Of a stretch of 64,000 nucleotides of DNA, positions 27,048 to 46,191 are shown piece by piece. The translations under genes were made by a program, and so were the position numbers. The number at the start of each line of letters is the position of its first letter. Within the stretch, counting starts at the first letter, position 1. The DNA is taken from assembly GCA_940746715.1 (NCBI GenBank), contig CALNWN010000006.1, positions 62,001-126,000 of the forward strand. The letters are read 5' to 3'. The notes beneath the pieces were generated by a model. The model saw only the letters and a program-made list of their open reading frames with translations. It did no database searches and was not told the origin of the DNA. This DNA comes from an uncultured Paraburkholderia sp. (lineage in GTDB: Bacteria > Pseudomonadota > Gammaproteobacteria > Burkholderiales > Burkholderiaceae).

Positions 27048-27113
27048 GATGTTCTCCTTCATTCCCTCACCGATTTCGTTCACTGAATTCGCTCATCGAG
27101 CTCGTTCATTGAG

Positions 27114-27603: not shown

Positions 27604-28066
27604 GGCTGGCCTCGTTTTGTTTCCAACACTGTTGCGAGGTCTTTTGCATCATCCGGGCCATGTGCCGAGAGCCTTTGTTTATAAGGCTTCCAGCGAACGG
27701 CAGCGGTTTTGTACAACACGAGTGTGGGCCGGGAACCGACAGAAAATCGCGTCCATGTGTTGGTGTCAGGCGCTCTTTTTCCGCAATGAAAAGCGGCGTT
27801 TCTGGTTGCTTTCCGGAAGACTCATGGCGGCCGAAAAAGTGTTGGGCGTCACACCGGTTGCAGTGTGCGCGTGTTGGCCGGCGCCCGACCTATCGGTGCA
27901 CACGCTGGTCGGCGCGCAGCGTCGAGGTGGTCCGCATGGCCACGCCAGGCAATGCAATGCGGCAAAACGCATGACGTCGCGTGCGAATTGGCATAGCACT
28001 TGCACCATCCCCGTCCAGATCCCCTCAAGCCGTGCGCGTCGCGTACGCGGTCAACCGGAGAACGAC
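27604..28066. other. Long 5' region of the small leader-bearing protein gene
   Basis: A 463-base stretch with no credible gene. It carries a near-consensus sigma-54 promoter at 27989-28004 and enough upstream DNA for enhancer binding. Several GC-rich imperfect repeats (GTTGGCCGGCGCCC near 27874, CTGGTCGGCGCGC near 27906) are possible activator sites, but I cannot define them. Confidence 0.5.
27989..28004 (+). promoter_or_regulatory. Sigma-54 (-24/-12) promoter
   Basis: TGGCATAGCACTTGCA matches the sigma-54 consensus TGGCAC-N5-TTGCW with invariant GG and GC in exact spacing. Transcription would start near 28016, about 51 bases before the ATG of the small leader-bearing gene. A sigma-54 activator gene (29176-30537) lies in the same cluster. 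Confidence 0.75.
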
Positions 28067-28351
28067 ATGTCTTCCATTTCCGTGAACGACCTTTCGCTCA
28101 ACCTCGCGCTCGACCGCAAAGCCATGGCGGCAATTCGCGGCGGCGGAGCGCCCTGGGTGTATGGCTGGATTCAACCTTATGTGCGGGAAACGCCGAGCAT
28201 TGGGCCGGTCGTGAACCTGTACGAGGTCTCGAACAACTTCTATGCTAACCAGATGATCAACCAGTTCCAGTCGGTCGACGTGCGCAATACCGGCGCAAAC
28301 TCGAACATCAGTGTCTCCCCTGACGCACGCAGCCGAAACGATAAGGTGTAG
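28067..28351 (+). CDS. Small leader-bearing protein 1, candidate secreted peptide (94 aa)
   Basis: MSSISV then DLSLNLALDRKAMAAIRG, followed by GGAPWVYGWIQPYVRETP and a polar, Asn/Ser-rich C-terminus (NTGANSNISVSPDARS). The first 26 residues look like a double-glycine-type leader: amphipathic, with hydrophobic residues spaced before a Gly pair. An almost identical leader occurs in the second 94-residue protein at 40302, and both genes have sigma-54 promoters and flank an ABC-HlyD-TolC exporter. GGAG precedes the ATG. The stop is six bases before the PP2C start, so the two are co-transcribed. I know no family for it; an antimicrobial, signalling or surface role are all possible. Confidence 0.78.
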   Translation: MSSISVNDLSLNLALDRKAMAAIRGGGAPWVYGWIQPYVRETPSIGPVVNLYEVSNNFYANQMINQFQSVDVRNTGANSNISVSPDARSRNDKV

Positions 28352-28356
28352 CCGTT

Positions 28357-29126
28357 GTGATTTGCGCGAGCCAATTTCGATGGACGTCGTCGTCGCGTTC
28401 CGACGCGGGATGCGTGTGCAAAATCAATGAGGACGCGTGCCTCGACGAGGCCGACCTCGGGCGCTGGGCCGTCGCGGACGGCATGGGCGCGCATGCGGTC
28501 GGCGATCTCGCGAGCCGCCTCGTTATTGACGCTCTCAAGCGGCTCGCCCCCCTGTCAGCATGAAAGCGTTCATCGCGGACGCACGCGCCCATTTGCAGGT
28601 AGCCAATCGTCAGTTGAGAGAGGAAGCCGCACGCCGCCAGGTGCAGCGCATTGGCAGCACGGTCGTCGTGCTGCTCGCGTGCGACCGTTTTTGCGGCTAT
28701 GTGTGGGCCGGCGACAGCCGCCTCTATCTGGTTCGCGACGGACAACTGCGCCAGCTCACGCGCGATCACAGTCAGGTGGAGGCACTCAAGTCGCTCGGTG
28801 TCCTTACCGACGAAGAAGCGCGCCATCATCCGGCGCAACATATAATCACGCGCGCTGTCGGCGCGACGGACCTGCTCGAACTCGACGACGATGCGATCGA
28901 GGTCGCGGACGGCGACATCTTCCTGCTTTGCAGCGACGGCCTGAGCAACGAAGTCGGCGAAGACGACATGTTAGCCGTGCTGAGCACCGCCGCGCACGGC
29001 AACGCGCCCGATCAACTGGTCAGCCTCGCGCTCGAACGAGGCGGCCGCGACAACATCATCGCGGTCGTGGTGCGCGCCGAAGATCCTTATGCCGCCGACA
29101 AAACGCTATTGAATCCCTCGCCATGA
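28357..29126 (+). CDS. PP2C-type Ser/Thr protein phosphatase, one frame break
   Basis: GTG start six bases after the small-protein stop. Metal-binding motifs are SDAGCVCKINEDACL, VADGMGAHAVGD, LLCSDGLSNEV and GGRDNIIAVVV, the four blocks of bacterial PP2C enzymes. The frame breaks in a run of six C (28547-28552); one more C gives LAPPVSMKAFIADARAHLQ and restores about 256 residues. It should remove phosphate from Ser/Thr residues. With the double-FHA protein (35500-38062) and the kinase (43933-46106) it makes a phosphorylation circuit like PpkA-PppA-Fha of type VI secretion, here next to a type I exporter. Confidence 0.9.
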
Positions 29127-29175
29127 CGCGCGAGACATGACATTGGGCTGCTGCCGTCGTTAACGGAAATGGCCG

Positions 29176-30537
29176 TCATGCGTCATTGTCATCTTCGTCC
29201 GGCTCTGCTGAGCCGTTTCTGCTCGGTGCGGCGAGGTTGCGATTGCGAAAGTCCTTCGAATGAAGCCCGTGTTTTTTCAGCAGCATTTGCAGATGCGAGC
29301 GGTTCATGTCGATACGCCGCGCCAATTCCGCCACCGTGCCGTTCACTTCCCGCAGCCCGCGTTCGAGAAAGGCTTTCTCCGCATCGTCGCTCGCGGCGCG
29401 TTTTGCATCGCTGAGCGACATCAGATTCGCCACGCTGATCGGCTGCTGGCCCGTGCCGTTGGCGAGGCCTTGCAAGGCCGCCGCCGAGCCGGGCGCAGCG
29501 GGCCGCATGTCGGTCGGCAAGTGGTCGATGTCCGCCATATCGCCCGCGAGGCACGAGATACGGTACATCACATTGCGCAGCTCGCGAATATTGCCTAGAT
29601 ACGCGTAGTTGAGCAGAAAGTCCCGTAAACGCGGGGTCAATCTCACCGGCCTGCGCTTCAGCGTGCCGGCCGCTTCATCGCCGAACCATGCAATCAGCAG
29701 CGGAATTTCGTCGCGGCGTTCGCGCAGCGGCGGCAGCGTGACGTGAATCACACTCAGCCGGTAGAAAAGATCCTCGCGGAACTTGCCCTCCTCGCTGAGC
29801 TTGCGCAAGTTCCGATTCGTGGCCGCGACAATGCGCGTATCCACCGCAATGGTTTCGTCCGAGCCCACGCGTTGAATCTCGTGCGCTTCCAACACGCGCA
29901 GCAATTTGACCTGACCCGCGAGCGGCAACTCGCCGATTTCATCGAGAAAAATCGTACCTGTATGCGCGCTTTCGAATTTGCCCTTGCGGTCGTTTGCCGC
30001 GCCCGTAAACGCGCCCTTGCGATGACCGAAGAGTTCGGACTCCAGCAGGTTGTCCGGAATCGCGCCGCAATTTACGGAGATAAACGGCTTGTCCGAGCGC
30101 GAGCCGTTCGCATGAATGACCTTCGCCATGAGTTCCTTGCCGGTACCGCTCTCACCGTCGATCAGAACCGGCAAGTCGGTCGGCGCCGCCTTCTCCGCAA
30201 TTTCAAGCGATTCGAGCAGGCGCGGATTGTCGCCGAACGTCCCTTCGAAAATGAAGCTGCGCTCCAGCAGAGCCTGTCTGCGCGCACCGCGCGACTGCTC
30301 GGCGCGCTGTTCCGGCTCCGCCGCCACCGCGGCTTGCACGAAGCGCTCCTTGTGCGATAGCTGCATGACTTCGTCGCGCAGCGAGGTGGCCTGCCTCAGC
30401 AGTTTGTCAATGTCGGTACGTTCCAGCCGCGACGACCAGCGCAGCGTCGAGCGCAAAATCTCGATACGCTCGATCAAACCCGCATAGGAAATCGCCGGAC
30501 TGATGTCTTCAATCTGGTCGAGTATCTTCATCATCAC
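29176..30537 (-). CDS. Sigma-54-dependent transcriptional activator (Fis-type HTH)
   Basis: An intact 453-residue protein. The AAA+ core has Walker [16 protein letters not shown], the sigma-54 contact loop [16 protein letters not shown] and Walker [13 protein letters not shown]; the C-terminus has a Fis-like helix-turn-helix ([20 protein letters not shown]). The N-terminal 115 residues are not a receiver or GAF domain but a helical region rich in charged residues, so the input is unknown; direct phosphorylation or protein contact is possible. It overlaps the ABC exporter stop by an ATGA, so it is translationally coupled. It is the natural activator for the two sigma-54 promoters at 27989 and 40376. 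Confidence 0.95.
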
Positions 30538-33316
30538 GCACTCAGTTGTTTCTGCACCAGTTGGTAGTACATGCCACCGCGCTGAAGCAGTTCTTCGTGA
30601 CGGCCCTGTTCGACAATCGCGCCTTCATACAGCACAAGAATCTTGTCCGCACGCATGATGGTACTCAGCCGGTGCGCGATGATCACCGCCGTGCGCCCTT
30701 TCAATATGTCGTGCATATGGCCGAGGATGTTGCTTTCCGATTGCGAATCCAGCGCGGACGTCGCTTCGTCGAATACGAGCAGACGCGGATCGTGATACAG
30801 CGCCCGCGCAATGCAGAGCCGCTGGATCTGGCCGCCCGACAAACCGATTCCGCGCTCGCCGACAATCTGCTCATAACCGAGCGGCATTTTGCTGATGAAC
30901 GCGTGCGCGTCGGCCATCTTTCCACTTCCTCTATACGTCGGCGGTCCGGCGCGTCGTCGCCGCTGGCGATGTTCTCGGCAATCGTGCCGGAGAACAGCAG
31001 ATTGCTTTGCATCACGTAGCCGATTTGCGCGCGGTAATAAGCTTTGTCGACCACGCTGAGGTCATAACCGTCGATCGACATTTTCCCTTCGCTCGGTGCA
31101 TAAAAGCCGACCAGCAGCTTCGCGAGCGTCGTCTTGCCCGAGCCGCTGCGCCCGACAATCGCCACCAGTTCGCCGGGCTTGATGTCGAAGCTGATGTTTT
31201 CAAGCACATAAGCGGAATCGTTGTCGCCATAACGGAAGTAGACACCGCTCAGGCTGATTTCGCCTTGCAGCTCCGGCAACATCACACGTGACGGCAGATC
31301 TTCAGGTTTCTGTTCAGGCTCGATGTCGAGCACATCGCCGAGACGTTCCATTGCCACGCCAGCGTCGTTCAGCATGCTCCACAAACCGACAAGCCCCATC
31401 AGTGGACCAAGCACGCTGCCCATGAATGCGTTGAAGGCGATCAACTGACCAATCGTCATCTCGCGCGCGAGTACGAGATTAGCGCCGACCCACAGAATCG
31501 CAATCGTAGTCGCTGCATTCAGCAACTGACTGCCGAGCCCGACGAGAATGTTGAAAGCGTGTGCGCGGTACTGCACTTCCAGTGCTTTTGCGTATTTCTT
31601 TTCCCAGCGCAAACGCACGGGCCGCTCGATGCCCATGCCTTTGACGGTTTCTACTCCTGCGAGCGCTTCCATGAGGAAGGACTTCGATTCCGTCGACGCA
31701 GTGAATACCTCTCGCGCGTAGTTCTTGATCTTCGGCGTGGCCAGCGCAGTCAGCGCCATGATAGGAATGACAAATCCGATCAGTACCAGTGTCATCTTCA
31801 CGTTGTATACGAACACGATCGTGAAGTAGATAAACACCATGAGCAGATTCAATGCTGTTGTCACGGTGGATTCGGTGAGAAACGCGCGAATGGTCTGGTT
31901 CTCCTGAAAGCGCGCGAAAATGTCGCCGGTTTTGCGCTTTGCGAAGAACGAGAACGGTAGCGACAACGTGTGCTTGAAGAACTGCGACATCATCGCGAAG
32001 TCCATGTTGTGCACCATGAAATTCGCCAGATAAGCGCGTATCGACGCCATCAGCTGCGAGAACACATTGGCAATAATGAGCCCGCCTATCAGCAGATGCA
32101 GGAGGCTCACGTTCTGATGCACGATCACACCGTCGAGAATGTTCTGGATGATGAGCGGCGGAATCACGCCCAGCACCTGAATCACGAATGTCGCGAGAAA
32201 CAGATGCCCGAGAATCTTTCTGTAGGGCTTCAGGTAGCCGACAAAACGTATCCACGGCGAACGCGCCGCCGACATTTGCACCAGATGCGGTCCGCCAGTA
32301 AACAGCAGGCACGTGCCGCTCCAGCCGCGTTCGAAGTCTTCGACTGTCAACTTGCGAAAGCCGAGTGCCGAATCGGCAAGCCACACGTACTCGCTGGACA
32401 GGCCGTACACCACGACTTCCGTTTGCTCGACGAGCGGGAAGCGCCGGATGACTTTTTCGCCGAACTCGGGCTTGCTCTGCAGATCAAGCATGAGCGGCAA
32501 CTTGCGGCGTTGCTCGAGCCGCTTTTGCCGCTGCAATTCGCGGTCGCCGTAACGAATGCGCTCGTCCAGTACTTCGCGCAGTTTCGGATTGCGCTCGAGG
32601 ATGAAATGCACGGTCCGCTCGGGAATGACGAGAAGCCGCGTATCTGTCGACGCAATCGCACAAGCCATCTGCTCCTGCCGCATCAAACACGCCTTCTCGC
32701 CAAATATCTCGCCTTCGCCTAATGTGGCGAGCGTATAGTCGCGCCCTTCCTCATGTCGAACGATCCGCACTTCGCCCTGGCGCACCACGTATAAGCGCCG
32801 GTCGTCGCGCGCGTCCTGCTTGAGAATTTCCTTGCCCGCGGCCACGCGCTTAACGCCGACGCTGCGCACATACTCTTCGAGTTCTGCCTTGTTCAGTTTG
32901 TCGCGCAAATCGAAGAGTTGCGCGACAAAGGCAAGCGCCGCCTGATTGCCCGTGATCACCGGCTCAATCGCGGCACGCGGAATGAACAGCAGTTCGGTTT
33001 TCGCGGATGCCCGTACCGACGCTTCATGCACATACGTGCGGAGCATGGCAATGTCGGCGAAGATTTCGCCCGACTTGCGCACGCCCATGCTCGTCTCCTT
33101 GCCATGCTCCTCGACAAAGATCCGGACCGAGCCCGAGCGAACTATGTACAGACCATCGGCTGTCTCGCCCGCGGAACACACGGTTTCGCCGAACGAGTAG
33201 TAACGCGCTTGCGCATATTCCACTAGACGCTCGATCTCGTCGCGCGAGAAGGGCGACAGTATCTCCACCGAAGCAAGGAATTCGGCGGCGGAAGGCGCGG
33301 TCTGGGGTGCATCCAT
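30534..33316 (-). CDS. Type I secretion ABC exporter with two cNMP-binding-like domains, one frame break
   Basis: About 1000 residues joined (break near 30930). Residues about 15-130 and 150-265 are cyclic-nucleotide-binding-like domains ([40 protein letters not shown]). Residues about 275-345 ([20 protein letters not shown] then [16 protein letters not shown]) match only the C-terminal half of a C39 peptidase-like domain, without the catalytic Cys segment. A six-helix membrane domain (about 355-640) and nucleotide-binding domain follow: Walker [13 protein letters not shown], signature [16 protein letters not shown], Walker [19 protein letters not shown]. It should export the leader-bearing proteins with HlyD and the TolC-like lipoprotein. 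The cNMP-like folds suggest gating by a nucleotide or protein. Confidence 0.93.
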
Positions 33317-33358
33317 AAGCGTGCTTGCCTCGGTTTTGCTTCTGATGGTGACGCCCGG

Positions 33359-34111
33359 TCAGCGCGCTTCGATCACATGCTCCTGCGCCCGCGCGATCAA
33401 CCAGCTTTCGCGCAGCAGCCGCCGGACTTCGGCGGCCACGTCGGTATCGAGCATAGCCGGATATTTGGCAGTCACCGCAAAGATCTCGAAACACGAGCGA
33501 TCCGCCGACGGGAACGGCCCGAGCAGATCGCCCACCGCGGCATTGAAAATCTTCGCCTCGATGTCGGGCTTCAACGAACCGCGCAGCACCTTGCCGATCA
33601 CACCGCCCGCTTCGCGCGTATCGGCAATGGAATGTTCGCGTGCCATGTCGGCGAAACTGTCCGGATCGTCGTGCAGATACGAGATCATTTCCTTCGCCTT
33701 GCCCTCGCTGTCCAGCACGATATGACTCACCTCGATTGCATCGAACTTCGGTGAATTCAGCGCGAAGTATTCTCTGACCGCCGCGTCGTTGCCGACCTCG
33801 TCGAGCATCTTCTCCTGATAGAGGCCGTCTGTAATGAATGCCTCGAATTCGTCGAGGCTCACGTTGAGCACGTCGAGGTACTGGTTCATATCGGTCGCGC
33901 GATGCAGTCCCCGCACGCGGCGAAATTGATCGGCGCGCTCCTGGATTTCGTCGGCGGTGACGACAATGCCCTGCTTCTTCGCCGCATGCACGGTCAGCTT
34001 GTCACGCACGATCTGCTCGATCAAGCTTTCGAACTGCCCAGTCAGTTTCAGAAGACGAATGAACTCACCCACATCCACGACTTCATCGTCGATTCGCACT
34101 ATCGCGGTCAT
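33359..34111 (-). CDS. PpiC/SurA-like peptidyl-prolyl isomerase family protein
   Basis: An intact 250-residue protein. The N-terminal helical part (ESLIEQIVRDKLTVHAAKKQ; VTADEIQERADQFRRVRGLH) resembles SurA N-domains, and the second half has the parvulin-type VSHIVLDSEGKAKEMISYL, DPDSFADMAREHSIADTREA and GGVIGKVLRGSLKPDIEAKI. There is no signal peptide, so it would act in the cytoplasm, unlike SurA. Isomerases of this kind accompany some peptide-exporting type I systems and may hold the substrate unfolded. It sits between the HlyD and ABC exporter genes on one transcript. Confidence 0.78.
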   Translation of the reverse strand: MTAIVRIDDEVVDVGEFIRLLKLTGQFESLIEQIVRDKLTVHAAKKQGIVVTADEIQERADQFRRVRGLHRATDMNQYLDVLNVSLDEFEAFITDGLYQEKMLDEVGNDAAVREYFALNSPKFDAIEVSHIVLDSEGKAKEMISYLHDDPDSFADMAREHSIADTREAGGVIGKVLRGSLKPDIEAKIFNAAVGDLLGPFPSADRSCFEIFAVTAKYPAMLDTDVAAEVRRLLRESWLIARAQEHVIEAR

Positions 34112-34148
34112 GTTGTCCGCTCCTTTAATTAGTGGGTGATCCGCACAG

Positions 34149-35537
34149 TCAACCTGCCACCTGTCTGAACGGATCGAGGCCCAGGTCGATCAGCCGCCGC
34201 TCCCGCACCACGATTTCCGCGCTGGCAGTCATGCCGTAACGCAACGGATAGCGGGTACCGGCGATCTCGTAGTAGTTCTTCTCCAGTGTGACGCGGTCCT
34301 CGTAGACGGGCTGCTTGTCCTGCAGCGAGGGCTTGGTGGCCGGAGAAATGTAGGCGAGCGTGCCGCTGATCAATCCGTAGCGCTGATACGGAAACGCGTT
34401 GAACTTCAGCTTGACGGGCAGTCCCTCGTGCAGAAATGCGCGATCATGCTCGGCGATTTCGATCTTCAGTACCGGCTTCGCGTCTTTAGGCACAATGCCG
34501 CCAAGTGGTGAATTCGCCTGGATCTTGTCGCCTCGCTGGGTGGACGTGACATCGGTGATCACACCGGAAACCGGCGCGAGAATCAGCAGAAAATTGTCCT
34601 TGTCGATGTTCTCGAAACGGATTCGCGCGGCGGCTTCGGATACGAGCCGTGCGCTTTGAAGTTGCAGCCGCACCTTGTCTTCGGCGTCGGTGATGTCGCG
34701 CACTGCGGCGTCGTATTGCAGCTGCAGATCGGTGGTTTGCTGGCCGCTCGTTTCCAGCTCCGCATTCGCTTTCGCGTACTCGTGGCTCAAACGGAAGTCC
34801 AGTTCCGCGAGTTTCGACTGTGCGACGCGGTACGCGTTGTCTGCTTCCAGCGCCGCCGTTCGTTTCTGCTCCACCTGCAATTGCGCAATGCCGCCGCCAC
34901 CTGGCTGCGCAAATAGCTGCGAATAGTGGTCCAGTTCCTGATGTGCGGCCTCGCGCACACGCCGCGCGTTGTCGAGCACACTGCGTGCTTCGTCGAGTTC
35001 GGCCTTCTGCCCTTCGGCGAGCTTGGTCGTGCCTTCGGAAACACGGTTTTCGTGCAGACGGGCCTCCACTTCCATTTGCGCCTTTAATGCAGCGGCTTTT
35101 CGCTCCATCAACGCTTTCTTCTGCGGGAACTGCTTCGAGTCGCGCTCGGCATCCTCGAGTTTCAGTTGCGCTTGCAACGCATTGCTCGCGGCCTCTATCG
35201 CGCCGCGCGCATTCAATCGCGCGAGTATGTCTCCTTTCGACACGGGCTGTCCTTCCGCGATATAGAGGTCGGCCAGCTCGCCGTCGATAGGTGCGTAGAT
35301 GCGGCGCACTTCCGATTCGGGCGACAGCGTGCCCTGCGCGGTGACGATCACATCGGCGCGCCCGACGAACGACCACAGCAAGCCGGCCACGACGAGCGCG
35401 ACCATGGTCCAGATCAGCGCACGCGCGATCCGCACCGGCTCGGCGGTGAGTATCGCGATGCCTTCCACGCTGTGGTCCTCCAGCGCTTCCGCCAGCGGCC
35501 TAGGGTGACTGTCGCGTTTCACTCTGCTCGCCTCCAA
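34149..35537 (-). CDS. HlyD-family periplasmic adaptor of the type I exporter
   Basis: An intact 462-residue protein: short cytoplasmic N-terminus, one membrane helix (ALIWTMVALVVAGLLWSFVG), lipoyl half motif (IYAPIDGELADLYIAEGQPV), a long coiled coil (residues about 115-285), the second lipoyl half (LAPVSGVITDVTSTQRGDKI) and a beta-barrel part ending RERRLIDLGLDPFRQVAG. It links the inner-membrane ABC exporter to the outer-membrane channel. Its start overlaps the end of the FHA gene by 38 bases, so the operon is tightly packed. Confidence 0.93.
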   Translation of the reverse strand: MEASRVKRDSHPRPLAEALEDHSVEGIAILTAEPVRIARALIWTMVALVVAGLLWSFVGRADVIVTAQGTLSPESEVRRIYAPIDGELADLYIAEGQPVSKGDILARLNARGAIEAASNALQAQLKLEDAERDSKQFPQKKALMERKAAALKAQMEVEARLHENRVSEGTTKLAEGQKAELDEARSVLDNARRVREAAHQELDHYSQLFAQPGGGGIAQLQVEQKRTAALEADNAYRVAQSKLAELDFRLSHEYAKANAELETSGQQTTDLQLQYDAAVRDITDAEDKVRLQLQSARLVSEAAARIRFENIDKDNFLLILAPVSGVITDVTSTQRGDKIQANSPLGGIVPKDAKPVLKIEIAEHDRAFLHEGLPVKLKFNAFPYQRYGLISGTLAYISPATKPSLQDKQPVYEDRVTLEKNYYEIAGTRYPLRYGMTASAEIVVRERRLIDLGLDPFRQVAG

Positions 35538-38062
35538 TCAACGCCAGCTTCGCCCTCAGAAGCGAGGGGCCCAGCACCATTCGCAATTCGGTCAGGGAGC
35601 GCCGCTGCAACGTCGTCTCCGCTTCGATATCCGCGAGCAGGCGGTCGAAATCCGCGGGATGGTCCGCTTTCAGTTGCGAATAGATGCGCATACCTTGCTG
35701 CGCAGCCGTCTGTGCATCGGATAGGAGCCGCGCCTCATTGCGAAAACCCGGTGAAATGCCCGCCTCCAGACGCTGCGTGCCGCCAATCGGCCCGCTCGCG
35801 CGATACTGCTTCCACAGGCTTTGCGCACGCGTCAGCGCTTTATCATGCAGCGCGGCGACGTCTTTCTGGATGGATTGTGCGAACCAGACGTCCGTTGAAG
35901 GATCGAGGCTCGCGTAAAAGGACAGCAGACGCTGGTCGTAATCCTTGCCGCCGCGCGTTTTCTGCAGGTCGTTGTATTGATCGAGAAGCGCTTTCTTGTG
36001 GGTCGCTTCGGCAGCCAGCACATCGGACCATGGGCCGGCAGGCATCGACTGCAATGCGGCGAGCGCCTGCTGCGTATCACCGCGTTGCCATGCTGCTGTT
36101 ACGGCGTCGTGCCGCTGGACCACGTCGGCGGAAGGCAGACGCGTCGCCGTAAGTTGCGCATATTGCGCCTGAAACGGCGGCGTGCTGAAACGCGCAGTCT
36201 TCATGAGCGCGAGCAACGTGCTCAACTGACGGCCGAGCGCCGCTTCCAGCACGGCACTGTATTGGCGCAGATCGTCGCGCACGCGGTCAAGGCCGGCGAG
36301 CCGCGGATAGCGTTGCGCGTAATCGTCGAGTACGGATGGCAGCGCCGCGGGCTTGTCACGCGCCAGCTCGGTGCGGATCGTGCCATCCAGGCGTTCGATC
36401 GCGGCAAGGTAAACCGAATCGTCGCTTTCCAGCTTGCGCAGATGACTCATCGCTTGCGCGTAAGGCTCCGTAAATACGGGCACATACGACGCGATTCTGT
36501 CGAGCGCGCGCTGGTGGCTCTTCGGGTCGTCCTTCCAGCGCTGCAGCAAACCGTCGATCGCGGGTTCGTCGTGATAGATGCGAATCGGCGCCTCCACACC
36601 GCCGCGCCCGGCGACGAAGCGCTCGAGATCGTACCCACTGCAGCTCGCCGAGCAGGGACGCTGTGTCCGCATTGTTCGCGGTCGACGACTTCATGTCCGC
36701 AAGCAGCGCATCCGCTTCCTGGAATTGGGCCTTCTGCAGCGCATTGAGCCAGCCGGGCAGCTTCGCCTTGAGCAGCGCTTCGCTGGCGAGCGCGCTGACT
36801 CTCGTGTCCGTGGGATGACTCGCCAGATAGCTCTTCGCGGACTGCACCGCGCTCGTATAGTCGCCGCTCGCCAGCAGATTCTTCAGCTCGCGCTCGGACG
36901 AGCCGCGCATGTAAAGCGTCAACGCGACGGCGGCTATGAGCACGACACCTGTGCCGCCCCACGCCGCGATGCGCCACAGGCTCGCGCGGTCGTCGCCGGC
37001 AAATGCCTTGCCCAGTTCCCTCGCCACGAGCCGCCAGCGTTGCGGCTTGCGTCTCGTTGCGCCGGCAACGCGGCCCGCACTCGAGCCGTTAGCGGCACTC
37101 TCCGCGGCGGGGCCGCCATTCGCGATTTTGGCCGCGCCGACCGCCGCTGCGCCGCCCGACGGCCCGCGTTTTGCCTGTACGGGCGCCGCGTGCGCGGCCT
37201 CGTTGATTTCGTCCTCGCGCTGCCGCGCCGGATCGACGCAGAAAATGTCGAGGAACGGATTCGCCGCGCCGACGAACGTCGTCTTGTCGGCGTCGGCGGC
37301 CTGGTCGGCGGCGGGATCGAGGAGCAGTTGCGTCACGGTCGGTTCGACCTCAGGCGGTGTATGCAACGTCACCCTGTAGACGAAGTGGTCTCCGCCAAAT
37401 GCAACGACGCGCCATCTGCAAGCGGCAGCGCGGATTCGTCAAGCCGCTTTCCGCCGACGAATGTGCCGTTCGTGCTGCCGAGGTCTTCCACGTAAAGCTG
37501 CTCGCCCTTCAGATAGATGTGCGCATGCCGGCGCGAAATGTAGTTGACCTGATGCGGGTAGCGGTCCTTGTAGCGCGAGAAGACTTCGTCCGCCTTGCTG
37601 ACCAGAAATGGAAAGGCCTGTACTTCAATAGGCTGAAGCCCGAGATCGTCTCGCTGCGGCACGAGCAGCAGGCGAGGCGCGCATGTTGCGCTGCTGCCCG
37701 CAACAATGCGAGCGCGCGGCTCGATACTCACGCGATAACACAGGTCGCCGCCAAAGCACAGTTCGTCGCCCGCACGCACGCGGGCCGGGGTCTGCCGCAC
37801 CGGGATGCCGTTGACCGTGGTGCCGTTCTTGCTGCCCAGGTCCGCGACATAAGCCGCGCCATGTTCGATAAAGACGCGCGATGCGCTCGGCGGGGTAATC
37901 GTTGAACGGCGCTTCGCTGCGGCCAATGTCAAACAGACTGTCGACAATGCGGATCGCGTCCAGCGCCGGGCGCTGCCCGGACGCAACGGGAGCAAGCAGC
38001 ACGTCGAAAGCGGTTTCGACTGTCGCACGCGTCTCAGCAATCGATGTTTCGCCGTCGGCCAT
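35500..38062 (-). CDS. Double-FHA-domain membrane protein, three frame breaks
   Basis: Starts MADGETSIAETRATVETAFD. FHA domain 1 reads IVDSLFDIGRSEAPFNDYP ... VADLGSKNGTTVNGIPV; FHA domain 2 reads YISRRHAHIYLKGEQLYVED then LGSTNGTFVGGKRL. A Pro/Ala-rich linker, one membrane helix (GGTGVVLIAAVALTLYMRGS) and a large helical repeat-like C-terminal region (NLLASGDYTSAVQSAKSYL...) follow. Breaks near 37890, 37408 and 36645; the middle one is repaired by reading FGGDHFVYRVTLHTPPEV, which joins what otherwise looks like two genes. Joined, about 853 residues. FHA domains bind phosphothreonine, so this is the probable reader of the Ser/Thr kinase signal at the inner membrane, with a periplasmic part that could touch the exporter. 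Confidence 0.85.
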
Positions 38063-38334: not shown

Positions 38335-39879
38335 CTACTTCTCTTTGACCTGTGCCTGCACGTCCACAGTCGGCCAGCCGCCGCCGAGTGCCTTGTACAG
38401 CAGCACCGTGTCGGACAAAATCAATTGATGATTGGCCAACAGCGACTGCTGGGCATCGAGCAGCGGGCGTTCGGTTTCGAATACCTCGAGTTGCGACACG
38501 ACACCGAGCCGCAGTTGCGACTGAATCTGATCGGCCACGATCTGCAAACAATCCACCTGTTGCTGCAATTCAACCCTCTGCGCCTTGTGCGCATTCAGAT
38601 TGACCAGCGCGTTTTCCACTTCCTCGAATGCGCCCATTACCGTCGCGCGGTACTGCTGCTCCGCGACCGTCGATTGCGCCTGCGTCACTTTCACGTGCGC
38701 ACGCACACCGGGGTCGAGCAGTGGAATATTGATGCTCGGCATGAAGCCGAAGGTGAACGACTTCAGCAAGTCGGTCAGCGCGAAGCTCGCGGTGCCGCCG
38801 TGCCCGGTCAAACTGATAGAAGGCAATTGCGCGAGCTTGGCCTGACCGACGAGGTCATACGCCTCGAGCACACGGAACTCCGCAGCCACGATGTCGGGGC
38901 GCCGCGCAAGCAGTTGGGCGGGCAAGCCGTCGGGCACGCCCGGCAGCTGGACGCGTTGCTGCAAATGACCTTTAGGCAGGCGGAATTCGCCCGCGGGTAC
39001 GCCTGTCAGCGTGCACAGCACGTTATTCGCGAGATCGCGCGAGCGCCCCAGTTCGAGCAACTGATTCGTCAGGCGATTGATTTCCGCCTGTTGCCGCAGA
39101 ACCTGCGTCTGCGGGATCAGGCCGCTGCGGCGCTGGCCTTCGTAGATGGAGAGAATCTGCCGGTTCGCGGTGAGGGTTTTTTGCTGCTGGTCGATCTGGT
39201 CGTCGAATTGAAGGATCTGAAAATAGGTGCTCGATACGTTCGACACCAGCTCCAGATAACCGGCACGCCAGTCGGCTTCACTGGCATGGAATTCGGCCTT
39301 CTGCGCCTGCACGCCTTTTTCGAATTTGCCCCAGATGTCGATGTCCCAGTTCACCTGGGTCGCCACGTTATATTGCTTTGAGAACGTCTGGCCAGTGGTT
39401 TTCTGGAAATCGGCGCCGCCGCCGAGATCCATCGTCGGCAGGGCGCCGGCTTTGGCCTCGCCGATTTGTGTGCGCGCCACGTCGATACGCGCGGCCAGCA
39501 CCTTGATGTCGAAGTTGCCGCCTATGGCCTTCGCAATCAGCGAGTCGAGCGTCGGATCGTTAAAGCCCTTCCACCACTCCGGCTCGATCGTGGCCGCCGC
39601 CGAGATGGGGGCGCCGTTCTGGCCGGTCCATGATGTTTTGGCCGGTGTGTCGGGCCGCTTGTAGTCCGGCATGCCGACATCGATACAGGCACACAGCGCG
39701 GCGGCGCATAGCGTTGCAGCGCACAGCCCGCGCAACGCTGCCGTTGTGGGGTGATTGAAGAAGCGCTGAACGATCTGTGAATCAGGCAACGCTGACACGA
39801 TTTTCTCCGGTGACGCCACTTCACTGCGCGACGCAAGTCGCACGCTTTCAGTAAAGCACCTCCCGCGCCGCTTCACCAT
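38335..39879 (-). CDS. NodT/TolC-family outer-membrane channel lipoprotein
   Basis: An intact 514-residue protein. After a 55-residue N-terminal stretch the lipobox-like ATLCAAALCACIDVG precedes the mature Cys; PDYKRPDTPAKTSWTG and EPEWWKGFNDPTLDSLIAKA are the standard beginning of NodT-type outer-membrane factors. Two long helical hairpin repeats (about residues 100-300 and 310-500) build the trimeric channel. A shorter start at a downstream Met may be the true one, since the signal begins late. In this cluster it is the outer-membrane exit of the ABC-HlyD exporter. Confidence 0.93.
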   Translation of the reverse strand: MVKRRGRCFTESVRLASRSEVASPEKIVSALPDSQIVQRFFNHPTTAALRGLCAATLCAAALCACIDVGMPDYKRPDTPAKTSWTGQNGAPISAAATIEPEWWKGFNDPTLDSLIAKAIGGNFDIKVLAARIDVARTQIGEAKAGALPTMDLGGGADFQKTTGQTFSKQYNVATQVNWDIDIWGKFEKGVQAQKAEFHASEADWRAGYLELVSNVSSTYFQILQFDDQIDQQQKTLTANRQILSIYEGQRRSGLIPQTQVLRQQAEINRLTNQLLELGRSRDLANNVLCTLTGVPAGEFRLPKGHLQQRVQLPGVPDGLPAQLLARRPDIVAAEFRVLEAYDLVGQAKLAQLPSISLTGHGGTASFALTDLLKSFTFGFMPSINIPLLDPGVRAHVKVTQAQSTVAEQQYRATVMGAFEEVENALVNLNAHKAQRVELQQQVDCLQIVADQIQSQLRLGVVSQLEVFETERPLLDAQQSLLANHQLILSDTVLLYKALGGGWPTVDVQAQVKEK

Positions 39880-40018
39880 CGAAGCAGTGCATGAACATGG
39901 ACCCGGGAGATGTGCGGTGAAGAGGTGTCGCGTGAAAAGAACGATTGGACGTGCGGACTTTTTGAGGATCGGCTGGCGGACGCGCGGGCCGGCTGGCCTT
40001 TGCGTCCGCCCGTGCCGC

Positions 40019-40302
40019 TTACGACACGTAGATGTTGTTGCTCGACGTCACATGCGGATCGATGGTGGTCGAGACGTCCGCAACGAAGGCGGCGTTGTTG
40101 CCGTTCGCGTTCTGGATGTTCATCGTCGTGCTGATGAGTTGCGTTGCATCCACCTTCTTGCTGTTGTTCGGCGCATAGACCGGGGCGAAGTTCAGATACG
40201 ACGACGACGGATACAGGTAGCCGGTGCAGCCGCGCACAGCGCTCATCGCCTTGCTGTCGAGTTGTTCGTGATGGACAGGTCTTTGATCATCAGCGTGTTC
40301 AT
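40019..40302 (-). CDS. Small leader-bearing protein 2, one frame break (94 aa when repaired)
   Basis: ATG 40302, preceded by CAGGAG, reads MNTLMIKDLSITN and then hits a stop; one extra base near 40262 joins it to LDSKAMSAVRGCTGYLYPSS and a polar Asn/Thr/Ser-rich end (SNNIYVS). The repaired leader DLSITNELDSKAMSAVRG aligns with DLSLNLALDRKAMAAIRG of protein 1, and both repaired proteins are 94 residues. A cysteine follows the Arg-Gly of the leader here. It has its own sigma-54 promoter and lies upstream of the TolC-like gene on the same strand, so it may head the exporter operon. Family unknown to me. Confidence 0.75.
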
Positions 40303-40344
40303 GGCAAATCTCCTGAAGGGAAGGTCACAGCGTTTCGGTTAGGT

Positions 40345-40368
40345 TCGAGCAACTTGTCTGCTCGAGCA
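40345..40368. promoter_or_regulatory. Dyad near transcription start of small protein 2
   Basis: TCGAGCA (40345-40351) and TGCTCGA (40359-40365) are perfect inverted repeats around a 7-base loop, and TGCTCGAGCA (40359-40368) is itself a palindrome. It overlaps the expected start site of the sigma-54 promoter, so it could be an operator or a stabilising 5' hairpin. Confidence 0.4.
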
Positions 40369-40375
40369 TCACTAA

Positions 40376-40391
40376 CGCATGGGCTGTGCCA
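40376..40391 (-). promoter_or_regulatory. Sigma-54 (-24/-12) promoter
   Basis: On the minus strand TGGCACAGCCCATGCG has a perfect -24 half and the invariant GC of the -12 half in exact spacing. Transcription would begin near 40364, about 62 bases before the ATG at 40302. It mirrors the promoter of protein 1 at 27989. Confidence 0.7.
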
Positions 40392-40394
40392 GTT

Positions 40395-40961
40395 TTATTT
40401 CCCGATCCTAAGAAATTTGCGAAGGTGCCTTGAATAAAGGCTTCTAGAGAAATGCGGCGCCGTTGATCGCGCTTGTGACGGCGCCCCGTCGTACGCCATA
40501 TGATGGATTGCAGCCAACAACAGGCGTGAAATGGTTGGCTCCGTGATCTTCTTCGAGTACACGGGCGGGTTGTGCGGGATGTGCATGTCGTCGCCCATCA
40601 GAAGCTGCAACGTATGCTTGCCCGGCGGCAACTGGATCGTGGTTTCAGTTTCGCCGGCGCCGAAGTGCAGGTGATTGCGGTCCGAGGGTATCTCCTTGTC
40701 CAGCGGCGGCAAGTCGGTGTCGATCAGCAGATGATGATGTCCCGTGTTCGGATACTTGACGCCCTTCGGCGCCACGCCCATATAACGCAATCCGAACCAC
40801 ACGCGAAACGGCTTGTTGGCGGGAACCACCTGGCCGTCGTTCGGATAGCCGATATAGGCATACGCGCCGTGAGGCGAAGGCGCCCCGGCCGCCGCGGCGA
40901 AATCCGCCGCGCCCCATGTGGCCGACACGACCAGCGCCGCCACTGCGATGAGCTTGTACAT
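40395..40961 (-). CDS. DUF4399 exported protein, copy 1
   Basis: Signal peptide MYKLIAVAALVVSATWGAAD, then a DUF4399 beta-sandwich: YPNDGQVVPANKPFRVWFGL, PNTGHHHLLIDTDLPPLDKE, IPSDRNHLHFGAGETETTIQ, LPPGKHTLQLLMGD. The His-rich segments (GHHHLLID, RNHLHFG) could bind a metal. The last 50 residues after SKKIT differ from copy 2 and look like run-on sequence, so a frame break near 40545 is possible; copy 2 ends SKKITITVQKD. It lies 48 bases from copy 2 on the same strand. DUF4399 function is not established. Confidence 0.75.
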   Translation of the reverse strand: MYKLIAVAALVVSATWGAADFAAAAGAPSPHGAYAYIGYPNDGQVVPANKPFRVWFGLRYMGVAPKGVKYPNTGHHHLLIDTDLPPLDKEIPSDRNHLHFGAGETETTIQLPPGKHTLQLLMGDDMHIPHNPPVYSKKITEPTISRLLLAAIHHMAYDGAPSQARSTAPHFSRSLYSRHLRKFLRIGK

Positions 40962-41008
40962 GAAGGTCTCTCCGTCCTGAGCAGGCCGCAATGAACGCGC
41001 AGAACGCG

Positions 41009-41516
41009 CTAGTCTTTCTGCACGGTGATGGTGATCTTTTTCGAGTACACGGGCGGCGTATGCGGCACGTGATTGTGGTCACCCAGAATCAGTTGCAGCG
41101 TGTGCTTGCCTGGCGGCAGCTCGATACGCGCATCCGTCTCGCCTGCGCCGAAATGCAGGTGATTGCGGTCCGACGGAATTTCCTGGTCGAGCGCCGGCAA
41201 ATCTGTATCGATCAGAAGATGATGATGCCCGGTGTTGGGGAACACGATGCCTTTCGGGCACACCCATGTTGCGCAAACCCATCCGCACCCACAGCTTGCC
41301 GCCGTGAATCACGGCACCGTCGGGTGGCCAGATGATGTACTCCTCCGCGCCCGGCGGCGATGCAGTCGATTCCGCGAAAGCCGCGAGCGGCAGCGCGGCG
41401 CTGGCAATGGCGACGGCGACGGCGAGCACCGTCCGCGAAACTGCACGCGTGGCGCACAGCCGCATCATGGCTTTCGAACTCGGGTTGGGAACAGCGGGGA
41501 CGTTGGTTCTTCGCAT
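41009..41516 (-). CDS. DUF4399 exported protein, copy 2, one frame break
   Basis: The signal peptide is best read from MRLCATRAVSRTVLAVAVAI; a good GGGAGAG site favours the ATG at 41516, 17 residues earlier. The mature domain parallels copy 1: WPPDGAVIHGGKLWVRMGLR, PNTGHHHLLIDTDLPALDQE, PSDRNHLHFGAGETDARIEL, then SKKITITVQKD. The frame breaks near 41262 (NMGV / PKGIVF). The two tandem copies probably arose by duplication. They lie between the exporter operon and the caspase-like gene; a role in that system is inferred only from position. Confidence 0.8.
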
Positions 41517-41865
41517 GGCGCACTCTCCCGAAGAGCGGTCGTGACCACCTCGACTGCGCAAAGGCAGCGGGGGCGATGGTGCTGCGGTCGCGGGCGCGCG
41601 CGTGATGCGGCCGCCGCGTAGTTAAAACGACCGTGCCGCGTTGCTTGGTGAATTAGCTTAGGACGTAACTTGCCAAAAAGATACGCCATGCTCGTTAACC
41701 GTATAGCGCACTCGGTAAAAGTGTTGGTTGTGGCCCGCCACGCGCGTGCTATGGTTGTTGATACGCTGCAACGCGGCTGGTGAAAAGCGTGTGGATCCAA
41801 CCCATAGCGGCGATGACGCGGTGCTCGAATGCCTATGTTCTGTCCGGAACAAACAGGATGCGAAG
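41517..41865. other. Divergent intergenic region, 349 bases
   Basis: This lies between the leftward DUF4399 genes and the rightward caspase-like gene and should hold both promoters. I see no reliable promoter motif and no good sigma-54 site. No gene seen. Confidence 0.4.
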
Positions 41866-43895
41866 ATGTGGCGAATATTCCTGCTGATGTGGATGGCCGG
41901 GGCCGTTCTGTTGGATTGCGGCAGTGCTTTTGCCGCAGCACCGCGTGAGAGCACAAGCGCGGCGAATGGGGCGGCGGCGGAGCCGGCGCTTTTAACGCTC
42001 TCACCCTTTGCCCTGCGGCATGCTGGCGCCTCGCCCATCGCGCTTGTCATCGGCAATGGCGCCTATGGTCTGCATTCCGCGAACGGTGCAGGTTCGGCGG
42101 ACGGTATCGAGCGCAACGCACCGCGTGACGCAAAGGCCATGGGCGACCGCTTGCGTGCGCGCGGCTACGACGTCGACGTGCTTGTGAATGCAACACCGCT
42201 GCAAATGCGGCGTGCGCTTGCCCAATTCGGCGAGCGTCTGCGTGCCGGCGATGTCGGTTTGTTTTATTTCGCCGGGCATGGCATGCGCATCGGCACGCAA
42301 ACCTTGCTGATTCCCGCCGGTCTCGACATCCGCTCGCCCGCCTCGCTGTTCCGCGAGGGCATCGATCTGAGCGACGTCTTCGAGGCCATGCACGCGTCGC
42401 GCAGCGGCGCGCTGAATATCGTGATTGTCGACGCGTGTCTCGACAATCCATTCACCGGCGAAGTCGCGGGCGCGTCCGCGCTTCCACCCAACACGCTCGT
42501 TGCTTATGCGACCGCGCCGGGCGGCTTCGCAGCGGACGGCAGGCGTCATGGCATCTACACGCATGCGTTGCTGCGCGCCCTCGACGAGACACCCACGCAG
42601 CCTCTCGAGACCGTGCTGGCAAGCGTTGCCGCAGAAGTCGAACAAGCAACCGGCGGCGAACAGAGACCGTGGATCGCGTCATCGTTGCCCGGTCATGGGG
42701 GGCCACGCATGCTGCCGGCAGCGCGGCCGCCGGGACCATCCCCAATGACGACACTGTCGTCGCATTGCACAGCCGAGGCATTTTGCCGAAGGACAGCAGC
42801 GAGCAATACGAAATCACCTTCTGGAATTCGATCAAGGACAGCAACTACCCCGCAGATTACGAAGCGTATCTGAAGGCCTATCCGAATGGGCGCTTCGCCA
42901 CGCTCGCGCATGCGCGAATCGATCGGCTGCGGGCGGCGGCATCGAACGCCCCCGCAGCGACGGCGCCGACGCAGCACGCGGCGCCCTCGGTTCAACCTCC
43001 GCAGCAGAGCGCGCGGCCCGCGACACCCGCAGTGCATGCCGCGCCTGCCGCGCCCGCTGCCTCCGCGACGCAAGATCGCCGGCGCACCGTCACGACGCCG
43101 CCCGCCGCGAGCACGGCTGCGCCTGCCGCGCCGCCGGTGTCAGCGGCGGCGCAGAAACCCGCCGCGCATGCGCCGTCAGCCGGAGAAAGCCGCGACTGCG
43201 CGACGTGTCCTGTCATGATCGCGCTGCCCGCAGGGTCGTTTTCGATGGGCAGCAACAGCGACGACCCGTCGGAGAAGCCCGTCCATCACGTGACGATCGG
43301 CGCGCCGTTCGCTATCGGCAAATACGAAGTGACCGTCGAGCAATGGAATGCATGCGTCGCTGCGAATGCATGCCCGAAGCTCACCCCCGAAACGAATGGG
43401 AACAAGGCCGCTACCGCGCGTGATCTCAGTTGGGACGACGCGCAGCAGTACGTCAAATGGCTCACCAAAACCACGGGAAAACCGTACCGTCTGCCTACCG
43501 AAGCCGAATGGGAATACGCGGTGCGCGGCGGCACGGCCACCGCCTATTGGTGGGGCGACCAGATGCGCAAGGGCAACGCCAACTGCAAGGACTGCGGGGA
43601 GCCGTGGCACAAGGAGGGTCCCGAAACCGTGGGTTCTTTTGCACCGAATCCGTACGGCCTCTACGACATGAACGGCAGCGTCTGGGAATGGACCGCCGAT
43701 TGCTGGCACAACTCCTACCAGTCCGCGCCCGCCGACGGCCGCGCATGGGACAGCCCCGGCTGCGACATGCGCGTGATTCGCGGCGGCTCGTGGCGTGAAG
43801 GCGGCGGCTACATGCTGAGCGCGACGCGCTTCAAATACAGCGCGGGCGTGCGCCAGTCGCAAGACGGTTTCCGTGTCGTGAAAGACCTGAAGTGA
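41866..43895 (+). CDS. Exported caspase-like/formylglycine-generating-enzyme-like fusion, one frame break
   Basis: Signal peptide [20 protein letters not shown] then a caspase-fold (peptidase C14) domain: [19 protein letters not shown], the catalytic His in [20 protein letters not shown] and Cys in [15 protein letters not shown]. After a frame break near 42715 comes a linker with [20 protein letters not shown] and a long Pro/Ala-rich stretch, then an FGE/SUMF1-like domain: [57 protein letters not shown]. Joined, about 676 residues. FGE-like folds often bind sugars or ligands rather than oxidise cysteine. Located in the periplasm, it could process exported proteins; that is inference. Confidence 0.88.
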
Positions 43896-43916
43896 TCTGC
43901 TGAACGAAGCTCGACA

Positions 43917-43943
43917 ACGCGCCGAGCGCACATCACGGCGCGT
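43917..43943. terminator. Hairpin between convergent caspase-like and kinase genes
   Basis: ACGCGCCG and CGGCGCGT form a perfect 8-base-pair stem around an 11-base loop, overlapping the kinase stop codon. It could end either transcript; no U-tract. Confidence 0.4.
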
Positions 43944-46106
43944 GAGGCTTCGTGGTTATCGGCGCAAAATCCGCCAGGATTCTGTCGCGGCCGTATTTCG
44001 CGGCTATTTGCGCGAGTCGCGTGTCGAGTGCACGCAGATAATCGGCGCGCGGTTCCGCTTCGGGACGCGGCTTGTCGAATAGCGGCGCGGGCGTGATCAG
44101 CAGCACGACCATCTCGGAGCCGAACGGTCTGGCAATGACCCAGTCGCCCGCGCTGCCGACCGTCGCCGAGTAGTGCGGCGGTGCCTGGTTGTCCTTCGCG
44201 CGCGGGCTCGGCACCATATGAACGACATTGCCGTCGAGCTGGTAATAGTCGAGGTTCACATACGAGTCGTAGCCGGGCGTGCTGACATCGACAACCAGTG
44301 GATCGCCCTCGCTCAACTGGCCGCTCGGCGGACGCACCTGCAAGCCCGCGACGTGTCCGGCTTGCCAGTTCTGCGTCCAGTACGGCGCAAGCGCCTTCAC
44401 GGTGTCGCATTTGTCGTCGGCAAGCGGCTCGACGTCGAGCTTCAGCGTGTCCACGCCAGGCAGCGCCGTCAAACCATCCTTCAGCCGGGCGACGCCATAG
44501 CGTTGCGACAGGTAGCCGCGAACGCTCAACGTGTGATCCTGCGTCGCGGCCGATAGCGCCGAGCACGGCACCTGAGCGAGCACCGGCGTGACCGCTGCCA
44601 GTTGTCAGCGCGGGCTTCGGCGCAGGAGGAGGCGGCGCGACGAATGCCGCGGAGGCATTTGCCGCCGATGCGTTTGCCGAAGGCAGATTCGCGCTCGCGG
44701 CGTCCGCTGTCCCGCTCGTCGCCGCAGCCACTGTTCCACTCGCCTGCGCCGGCAATGAAGCGACCTCGCCGCCCGCCCCCTGCGATGCGCCCGCGGCCAT
44801 CTGCGCTTCGCTGTGACGGCTCGGCCCCGAACGCCACGCAAACACCGCCACAGCCGCCGCGCAAATCACCGCTGCGCCCGCGAGCCCTGCCTTCGCCAAC
44901 GTCCCTGACTTCTCCGCGCGAGCCTCATTGTCGAACTCGGCGGTGAAGCGTGTCACGCTCGGCATGCGCGTGGCCCGGTCGAAGGAAAGCGCGGCGCGCA
45001 ACGCGCGCCACTGCCTTGCATCGAGATTGGGCGGACGCTGCGGCTTGAACTCGGCGTTGCGCGCCTGAGTGGCCGACAGCCGATCAAACGGGTGATGTCC
45101 GGTGAGCAATTCATACGTGATGCAGCCAAGCGCATAGATATCGTCGCGCGGGTCGGGCTCGCGGTGCTCGATCATCTCCGGGCTCGCGTAGGCGGGCGTC
45201 AAGGCGCCGAGGCTGCCTAGGTCGAACACCGTCGCCGCTCTCTTCTTCCGGCCGCTGAAACACGCGAGCGATGCCGAAGTCGATCACCTTGACCTCGGCA
45301 TTCGTCGTGAGAAAGACATTGGCGGGTTTGAAGTCGCAATGCACGAAGCCGCGTTCGTGCGCGTACGCGGGCGCGCTGCACATGCCGCGCACGATGGGCA
45401 GCGCGGCACGAACCGGCATGCCCTGATAGCCCGGTGTGCGCAACAACTGGCTGAGGGGCTTGCCGGACAGGTATTCCATCGTCAGATAGACGATAGGACC
45501 GTCGCGATCGAAGTCGTACACCGTGATGATGTTGCGATGCGCGAGCACCTGCGCCTTGCGCGCCTCGCGCTGCAACGCCACGAGCGAATTCGGATTGCCG
45601 CGGAACTGGACGTTCAGGACCTTGATCGCAAGATACGGTTTTCTGTCCGACGCCTCGAGCTTGCGCAGATCCAGCGCCTTGTACACCGTTCCCATTCCGC
45701 CGACACCGAGGCACTCTTCGAGAACGAAGCGGTTATTCAGCGTATCGCCGATGCCCTTGATCTGATCGTGTCCCGCCGCGTGGAGTCCGTTAGCTGTGCT
45801 TGCCGACGCGCCAGTACGCGCCGCACCGGCCGGGACCACCGAGGGAATCTCCACTGTGGTCTGTATGCCTGTCTCGTCGCCGCCGGCCGCGACATTCGAC
45901 ACGCGCAGCAACTCGATGCGCCGGCGCACTTCGATATACAGGTCCTCGGGCAGTGGCGCTTTGCGATGCGCGGTGCCGAGCATCTCCAACAGCTGCGTGG
46001 GGCCGAGGCCTTCGGTCACCAGCGTGCTGTCGAGTTGAGCGACGAACTCCTCGCGAGACAGCTCGCCGTTCTGGAAGTCGTGAATTACACACGCAAGGCT
46101 TGCCAT
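43933..46106 (-). CDS. Ser/Thr protein kinase with membrane helix and DUF4384-like C-terminus, two frame breaks
   Basis: Starts MASLACVIHDFQNGELSREE. After a 130-residue N-terminal helical region the kinase domain shows the glycine loop LGVGGMGTVYKAL, Lys in YLAIKVLNV, catalytic loop FVHCDFKPANVFLT, DFG in VKVIDFGIARV, then (after a break near 45230) SPEMIEHREPDPRDDIYALG. HCD in place of HRD is a common bacterial variant. A membrane helix (AGLAGAAVICAAAVAVFAW) and Ala/Pro linker follow, then after a break near 44600 a domain with VNLDYYQLDGNVVHMVPSP and GSEMVVLLITPAPLF, resembling DUF4384. Joined, about 724 residues. It is the likely writer of phosphothreonine marks read by the double-FHA protein and erased by the PP2C enzyme. 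Confidence 0.9.
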
Positions 46107-46191
46107 GTTGTGCGAAATGCCGCCGCTGCCGTCCACCCCGATCGCATGCGAACAGGGGCTCTCCGGCCGATAGGAAAGCTGTCGTAACCAG

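Follow-up and report, generated by a model that had tools for sequence, protein, structure and literature searches.

A candidate sigma-54-controlled, leader-cleaving type I exporter linked to kinase, phosphatase and FHA genes in Paraburkholderia

An uncultured Paraburkholderia genome (assembly GCA_940746715.1; 5.18 Mb in 51 contigs) carries a locus in which genes of a type I exporter lie next to genes for small double-glycine (GG) leader proteins, a sigma-54 activator, a Ser/Thr kinase, a PP2C phosphatase and a double-FHA protein. The locus was analysed within a stretch of 64,000 nucleotides, referred to as the window (contig CALNWN010000006.1, positions 62,001 to 126,000). Profile searches identified the PP2C phosphatase, the sigma-54 activator, the ATP-binding cassette (ABC) exporter, a PpiC/SurA-like protein, a HlyD-type protein, the double-FHA protein and a NodT-type channel of the OEP family approximately where a preliminary description of this DNA had placed them, and likewise the DUF4399 proteins, the caspase and FGE domains and the Ser/Thr kinase (Table 1). 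Two cNMP-like domains in the ABC exporter, also part of that description, were recovered with Pfam. The description was silent on two points, a C39 peptidase in the ABC proteins of relatives and the frame-broken genes of the window copy. At E ≤ 0.001 the window genome has no FHA matches other than the two domains of the double-FHA protein, and a Pfam search gave no receiver-domain match in the window's sigma-54 activator. The window PpiC shares 99% identity with its counterpart in Paraburkholderia phenoliruptrix LMG 22037, and the main DNA stretches aligned between the window and a relative show 94-95% identity, which makes the host a Paraburkholderia-like species. A literature search, mostly without subscription papers, returned no description of this gene combination.

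The gene order and content of the locus are conserved beyond chance across soil-dwelling relatives of Paraburkholderia. Loci were collected by their PpiC gene and the best 80 of the 102 found were compared; loci without PpiC could not appear because of this. A gene was scored as present when a tblastn match covered more than 40% of the query. NodT, double-FHA, HlyD, PpiC, ABC and the sigma-54 activator occur together in 80/80 loci, PP2C in 78, and the small proteins S1 and S2 and each DUF4399 gene in 77. LRAT is found in 75 loci and caspase-FGE in 61; counts for LRAT, caspase and LysR are lowered by flank length. The block PP2C-S1-LRAT is inverted in four loci (L102, L103, L107, L111). PP2C lies kilobases from the activator in L061, L063, L064 and L070, and is beyond the stretch examined or absent in L054 and L062. 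Low median dN/dS values were obtained among close loci: 0.030 for ABC, 0.039 for HlyD, 0.048 for PpiC, 0.051 for the activator, 0.075 for S1, 0.126 for NodT (13 sequences), 0.127 for PP2C, 0.148 for FHA, 0.181 for LRAT, 0.192 for DUF4399a and 0.253 for S2. In only 49/80 loci does NodT have an open frame that reaches at least 85% of its length in L033, the shorter frames probably being start-site differences.

Exporter, small proteins, FHA, PP2C and kinase genes also remain together across genomes, the linkage by which the preliminary description had proposed to be checked. PpiC is present at ≥73% identity in 24 of 59 genomes, a set that includes the window's own genome, and 11 others show weak parvulin matches only. 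The kinase and S1 each occur in the identical 24 genomes. Kinase and PpiC are separated by 9.2-15.0 kb in 23 of these and lie on separate contigs in one. A Burkholderia stagnalis record holds NodT, FHA, HlyD, PpiC, ABC and activator as well as PP2C, S1, LRAT and kinase matches (tblastn).

The ABC proteins of relatives combine two cNMP-like domains with a C39 peptidase. In L033 the protein consists of two cNMP-like domains, a full C39 peptidase (Pfam C39, 5.3e-38), a transmembrane domain (TMD) and a nucleotide-binding domain (NBD), and is therefore predicted to be a leader-cleaving exporter. The C39 catalytic Cys and HWEGYHY motifs are conserved in 80/80 relatives, as is Walker B, and the Asp motif in 79/80. 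The features of a peptidase-containing ABC transporter (PCAT) are found together in relatives: a C39 domain that retains catalytic Cys and His and is joined to TMD and NBD, a HlyD-type adaptor and an outer-membrane channel in 80/80 loci, and GG-leader small proteins near the exporter. Scores against the NHLP bacteriocin export models (TIGR03796, TIGR03794) fall below the cut-offs, with 557.6 bits versus 853.3 for ABC and 70.1 versus 156.2 for HlyD. The C39 or C39-like, TMD and NBD regions align over about 700 residues with the PCAT1 and HlyB structures (4ry2, 4.6e-133; 7sgr, 1.3e-141), but the alignments start only past the two cNMP domains, at residue 304-312. A similar fusion of cNMP-like, C39, TMD and NBD regions is described for HetC of Nostoc PCC 7120, where ppGpp is bound in vitro by the cNMP domain. 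In contrast to the exporter described here, HetC has one cNMP domain, no membrane fusion gene nearby and a substrate that is not known according to the parts of the paper available to us, which also make no mention of PpiC or FHA (PMC10986499).

Several otherwise different small proteins share one GG leader. The leader L-D-x-x-A-M-x-x-[IV]-x-G-G heads S1 (GAPWVYGWI), S2, S2', S3 and S4, the last three of which are found on the kinase side in the relative L152. Fifteen S2 genes deviate from the strict pattern, for example at Ala or Met, with GG kept in the sequences printed. The 'leader-bearing' proteins of the preliminary description are in agreement with this leader and with the C39 peptidase in 80/80 relatives; its term 'paralogous' for S1 and S2 holds for the leader only, no kinship of the mature parts having been recognised. 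A DNA pattern for the leader gave 98 hits in 59 genomes, 81 of them within 30 kb of PpiC or kinase and distributed over all 24 exporter-bearing genomes. Nine further hits lie elsewhere in these 24 and eight in the 35 others, and the backwards pattern gave nine. Two of the nine elsewhere look real and represent S5, an unlinked 61-amino acid GG-leader protein in genomes G019 and G034 (L158:4571-4756, L159:4953-5138), each with a sigma-54-like site. In addition, three tandem S2-like copies are present at L121:16453-17345, with such a site only at the first.

S1 to S5 match no Pfam family (E ≤ 0.1) and no NCBIfam family (E ≤ 0.01). S1 contains an invariant core of Trp, Gly, Pro, Asn and Gln residues. 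The mature parts of S1-S3 and S5 (one example each) contain 17-19% Asn plus Gln, compared with 7% in the machinery proteins, and fewer charges; S4 does not follow this trend. Searches of the PDB with S1 and FHA C-terminal profiles returned nothing convincing.

Sigma-54-like promoter sites are concentrated at the substrate genes. Sites were defined by a score of our own (≥13.5 of 16 within 300 bp), with expected numbers derived from mononucleotide shuffles. The window contains 13 sites at this score, the S1 site being the highest, and the bare -24/-12 pattern alone does not exceed chance in one window. Across loci, sites are found upstream of S1 in 77/77 (1.2 expected), S2 in 66/76 (2.0) and LRAT in 59/76 (2.0), and likewise upstream of the kinase-side S2-like gene in 6/6 (L152, L154-L157, L161) and of S5 in 2/2. 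PP2C, ABC and the activator have none, NodT two, and HlyD, PpiC, DUF4399b and caspase one each; 5/77 were counted for DUF4399a (2.2 expected) and 11/80 for FHA (2.6 expected). S3 and S4 genes show no site in the 15 read, consistent with their belonging to an operon behind S2' wherever they lie next to it. The activator motif GAFTGA is conserved in 79/80 relatives. Together, the -24/-12 consensus matches on our own score and the GAFTGA activator point to the sigma-54 control proposed earlier, apparently directed at the small-protein and LRAT genes and not at the machinery genes. A hairpin exceeding shuffles follows S2 in 4/5 loci folded (L033:4046-4140 and homologous stretches of L037, L059, L084 and L095, with differing sequence). 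By eye it has no T-run, which would fit read-through from S2 into the export operon.

Kinase, PP2C and FHA proteins with conserved active residues are present, as in the threonine phosphorylation pathway of the type VI secretion system (T6SS). FHA motifs are conserved in 79-80 of 80 relatives, four of five PP2C motif patterns in 77-78 of 78, and the kinase HCDFKP and DFG motifs in 7/7 loci read. A single long hydrophobic run (373-391) and a long C-terminal part characterise the FHA protein of L033. The corresponding T6SS proteins are the membrane kinase PpkA, the PP2C-type phosphatase PppA and the FHA reader Fha1, as far as the accessible text describes them (PMC12133291). The likeness extends to all three components, while here they are linked to a type I exporter. 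Assignment to the T6SS-type FHA proteins (TagH/Fha) was rejected: TIGR03354 scored 29 bits against a cut-off of 120, and the intact L033 protein was not among the matches at E ≤ 0.01. Because the T6SS FHA model does not match, the parallel, drawn by analogy, is one of working principle and not of membership. Of the remaining enzymes, the FGE part of the caspase fusion is closest to PvdO among PDB chains (5hha, 2.9e-41); it may also have a parallel in TagR of the T6SS. The caspase part may be inactive, since its catalytic Cys is not clearly conserved ([IV][IVL]DAC in 11/76; FAGHG in 55/76). The LRAT H-motif is present in 74/76. A defence system was rejected as a candidate, PADLOC having matched generic kinase models and, weakly, caspase and PP2C models.

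Table 1. Features of the locus, with positions counted from the first base of the window.
Feature	Position	Strand	Remarks
LRAT/NlpC-like gene	27106..27603	-	two frames here; 167 amino acids in L037 (P. xenovorans LB400); Pfam LRAT 2.8e-8; 75/80 loci
Sigma-54-like -24/-12 site, LRAT upstream	27645..27660	-	score 14.0 of 16
Sigma-54-like -24/-12 site of S1	27989..28004	+	TGGCATAGCACTTGCA; score 15.4 of 16
S1, GG-leader protein	28067..28351	+	intact, 94 amino acids; leader ...LDRKAMAAIRGGG; mature start GAPWVYGWIQPY
PP2C phosphatase	28357..29126	+	frame-broken here; 256 amino acids in L033
Sigma-54 activator (bacterial enhancer-binding protein)	29176..30537	-	intact; Sigma54_activat 1.7e-70
ABC exporter, two cNMP-like domains, TMD and NBD	30534..33316	-	C39 core missing, frame-broken; 1018 amino acids with full C39 in L033
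PpiC/SurA-like (parvulin) protein	33359..34111	-	intact; Rotamase 4.4e-10
HlyD-type membrane fusion protein	34149..35537	-	intact
Double-FHA protein, one hydrophobic run, long C-terminal part	35500..38062	-	frame-broken; 869 amino acids in L033
NodT-type outer-membrane channel	38335..39879	-	intact; OEP 7.3e-49; outer_NodT above cut-off
S2, GG-leader small protein	40019..40302 (about)	-	leader split by frame change; open in relatives read
Sigma-54-like -24/-12 site of S2	40376..40391	-	TGGCACAGCCCATGCG; score 13.7
DUF4399 protein b	40395..40991	-	Pfam 1.7e-35; 77/80 loci
DUF4399 protein a	41009..41561	-	frame-broken here; 77/80 loci
Caspase (C14) and FGE-sulfatase fusion	41866..43895	+	frame-broken here; single open frame in L033 and L152
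Ser/Thr kinase, C-terminal DUF4384-like domain below Pfam cut-off	43933..46136	-	frame-broken; 756 amino acids in L152

The window copy of the system is probably decaying, dead or dying, judging from its reading frames. Eight genes (kinase, FHA, PP2C, ABC, S2, LRAT, DUF4399a and caspase-FGE) are interrupted, each into at least two frames, and S1, NodT, HlyD, PpiC and the activator are whole. Single open frames are found for FHA, ABC, PP2C and caspase-FGE in L033 and for the kinase in L152. The window ABC protein has lost its C39 catalytic core through a deletion of about 230 bases, and length differences relative to L033 are mostly deletions, some of those counted stemming from cross-alignment between the two DUF4399 genes. 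One housekeeping contig of 16 kb in the same genome shows whole frames for rpoB (Pfam) and for rpoC, ribosomal and other genes (by eye). We rejected sequencing noise as an explanation because the recognised frames of this contig, one of 51, are whole and the C39 loss is a deletion; bad local assembly may account for the frame breaks. Similarity to L152 stops at position 46304, and the kinase-side substrate genes of relatives find no match in the window. Next to the locus, a purple acid phosphatase-like gene (46085-47851) abuts the kinase; it matches Pfam over its first part, and by eye its end is out of frame. Also by eye, 48313-50219 encodes a GGDEF/EAL protein split over two frames, possibly representing further decay outside the locus. 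The window contains no Rfam match at gathering score and no tRNA.

The export core is also found at distant loci. Within the family, a PpiC profile matched 105 of 299 sampled genomes in 8 of 25 genera, and 3 of 399 genomes in an order-level sample, all from the same family. An S1 profile matched 2 of 369 genomes in a class sample, one being the window's own and the other G866, a genome from another family. In G866 the genes for NodT, FHA, HlyD, PpiC, ABC and activator keep their order, with identities of 30-69%; the genome also has a caspase gene and, on another contig, an S1-like protein. In the phylum sample PpiC was detected in 7 of 398 genomes, corresponding to the window's own, two family members and four distant ones; of 12 proteins resembling the distant PpiC of highest similarity, three were named Magnetococcales, one being identical to the query. 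PpiC, HlyD and ABC match in all four distant loci, the activator in three and FHA in three (L178 and L181 by tblastn, L179 by Pfam), the contig of the fourth measuring 4.6 kb. The three long distant ABC proteins each contain two cNMP stretches, C39, TMD and NBD, with the DCGxA pattern fitting L178 only, and L179 and L181 also contain OEP genes. L178 (Magnetococcales), L179 and L181 each combine activator, PpiC, HlyD and a double-cNMP C39 exporter. In none of the four distant loci read was a match to caspase-FGE or LRAT obtained.

We consider it likely that the locus encodes a sigma-54-driven, PCAT-type type I exporter coupled to a kinase/PP2C/FHA module, with export, cleavage and gating as predicted functions. 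The exporter would be formed by the ABC, HlyD and outer-membrane channel proteins, with the ABC subunit acting as a leader-cleaving PCAT. Its C39 peptidase would cut the GG leaders of proteins of 60-100 amino acids (S1, S2, S2', S3, S4 and the unlinked S5 of two genomes), and their mature parts would be released. The activator of the locus would fire the substrate genes from -24/-12 promoters, and the export operon may be switched on by read-through from S2. Based on the conserved FHA, PP2C and kinase motifs and on co-inheritance, we infer that the kinase, the phosphatase and a putatively membrane-anchored double-FHA protein gate the exporter or the activator, probably by T6SS-like threonine phosphorylation. 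The most likely extracellular role of the released proteins would be that of a conserved matrix, surface or signal component, not that of fast-evolving bacteriocins. By analogy, the nearest known biology is the EbfG/PteB system of Synechococcus elongatus, where a C39 peptidase transporter is needed for efficient secretion of several small GG-leader proteins (EbfG1-4, 9-10 kDa), as far as the source text could be consulted (PMC4997328, PMC9981879). EbfG1-3 are described there as amyloid-prone, a possible parallel to the Asn/Gln-rich, charge-poor examples of S1-S3 and S5. In contrast, PpiC, FHA and HlyD go unmentioned in the available text of PMC4997328, and the locus described here has sigma-54-like sites and kinase, PP2C and FHA genes.

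Several observations weigh against the coupled exporter. In the window itself, breaks affect the peptidase core as well as the genes for kinase, PP2C and FHA. Neither kinase nor PP2C was found on the 15.5-kb contig of G866 or on the contigs of the four distant genomes (4.6-17.6 kb), and the phospho-enzymes may therefore be a later addition or lie elsewhere; the four distant loci likewise yielded no recognisable GG substrate. Only 60/78 relatives carry the fifth PP2C pattern, RDN[IV]T. The canonical cyclic-nucleotide cassette pattern occurs in 0/80 ABC proteins, so the cNMP ligand may be another one, as with HetC. For S1 the AlphaFold model was unusable (pLDDT 41), its one structured feature being a short leader helix at residues 17-24.

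GG leaders combined with PCAT, HlyD and outer-membrane channel are the arrangement known from microcins, and the small proteins could accordingly be antibacterial peptides exported by the PCAT. The ABC protein does match bacteriocin-export models, though below their cut-offs, but the strong constraint on S1, its invariant core residues and the several substrates per locus make a bacteriocin or microcin system improbable; in addition, no immunity gene stood out, although none was searched for specifically. We regard as somewhat less improbable, but still doubtful, that the FGE-like and LRAT-like enzymes modify exported S1 and S2 in the manner of ribosomally synthesized and post-translationally modified peptides. 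The relation of the FGE domain to PvdO, the invariant S1 residues and the resemblance of PpiC to TIGR04500, a putative peptide maturation model (1.4e-26; 93.5 bits, below the curated cut-off of 180), favor such processing. No classical modification enzyme was recognised at the locus, however, and the absence of caspase-FGE and LRAT matches from the four distant loci read also argues against it. Alternatively, the small proteins might stay in the cell with the leader as a docking tag for the kinase/FHA pathway, the exporter carrying something else. S1 shows an equally tight co-occurrence with the kinase and with PpiC, which would agree with docking, but the feature common to the families is a leader ending in GG, C39 domains cut such leaders and the C39 catalytic motifs are conserved, leaving this the least probable of the explanations.

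Within the preferred reading of a phospho-gated PCAT exporter, we tentatively propose a more specific function. Much as in the T6SS, the kinase, PP2C and membrane-anchored FHA protein might form the firing switch of the exporter. The Asn/Gln-rich exported proteins might co-assemble extracellularly into a conserved matrix or fibre when the outer parts of the kinase and of the caspase-FGE protein sense a stimulus. S1 ranks with the more constrained proteins encoded here, yet has no match to a Pfam or NCBIfam family. If the coupled exporter is real, kinase/FHA gating would be a portable switch that is not special to type VI secretion and also operates on a type I exporter, and Paraburkholderia and Caballeronia (80 named loci in the two together), as well as at least one Burkholderia (B. 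stagnalis), would possess a secretome of tiny uncharacterised proteins.

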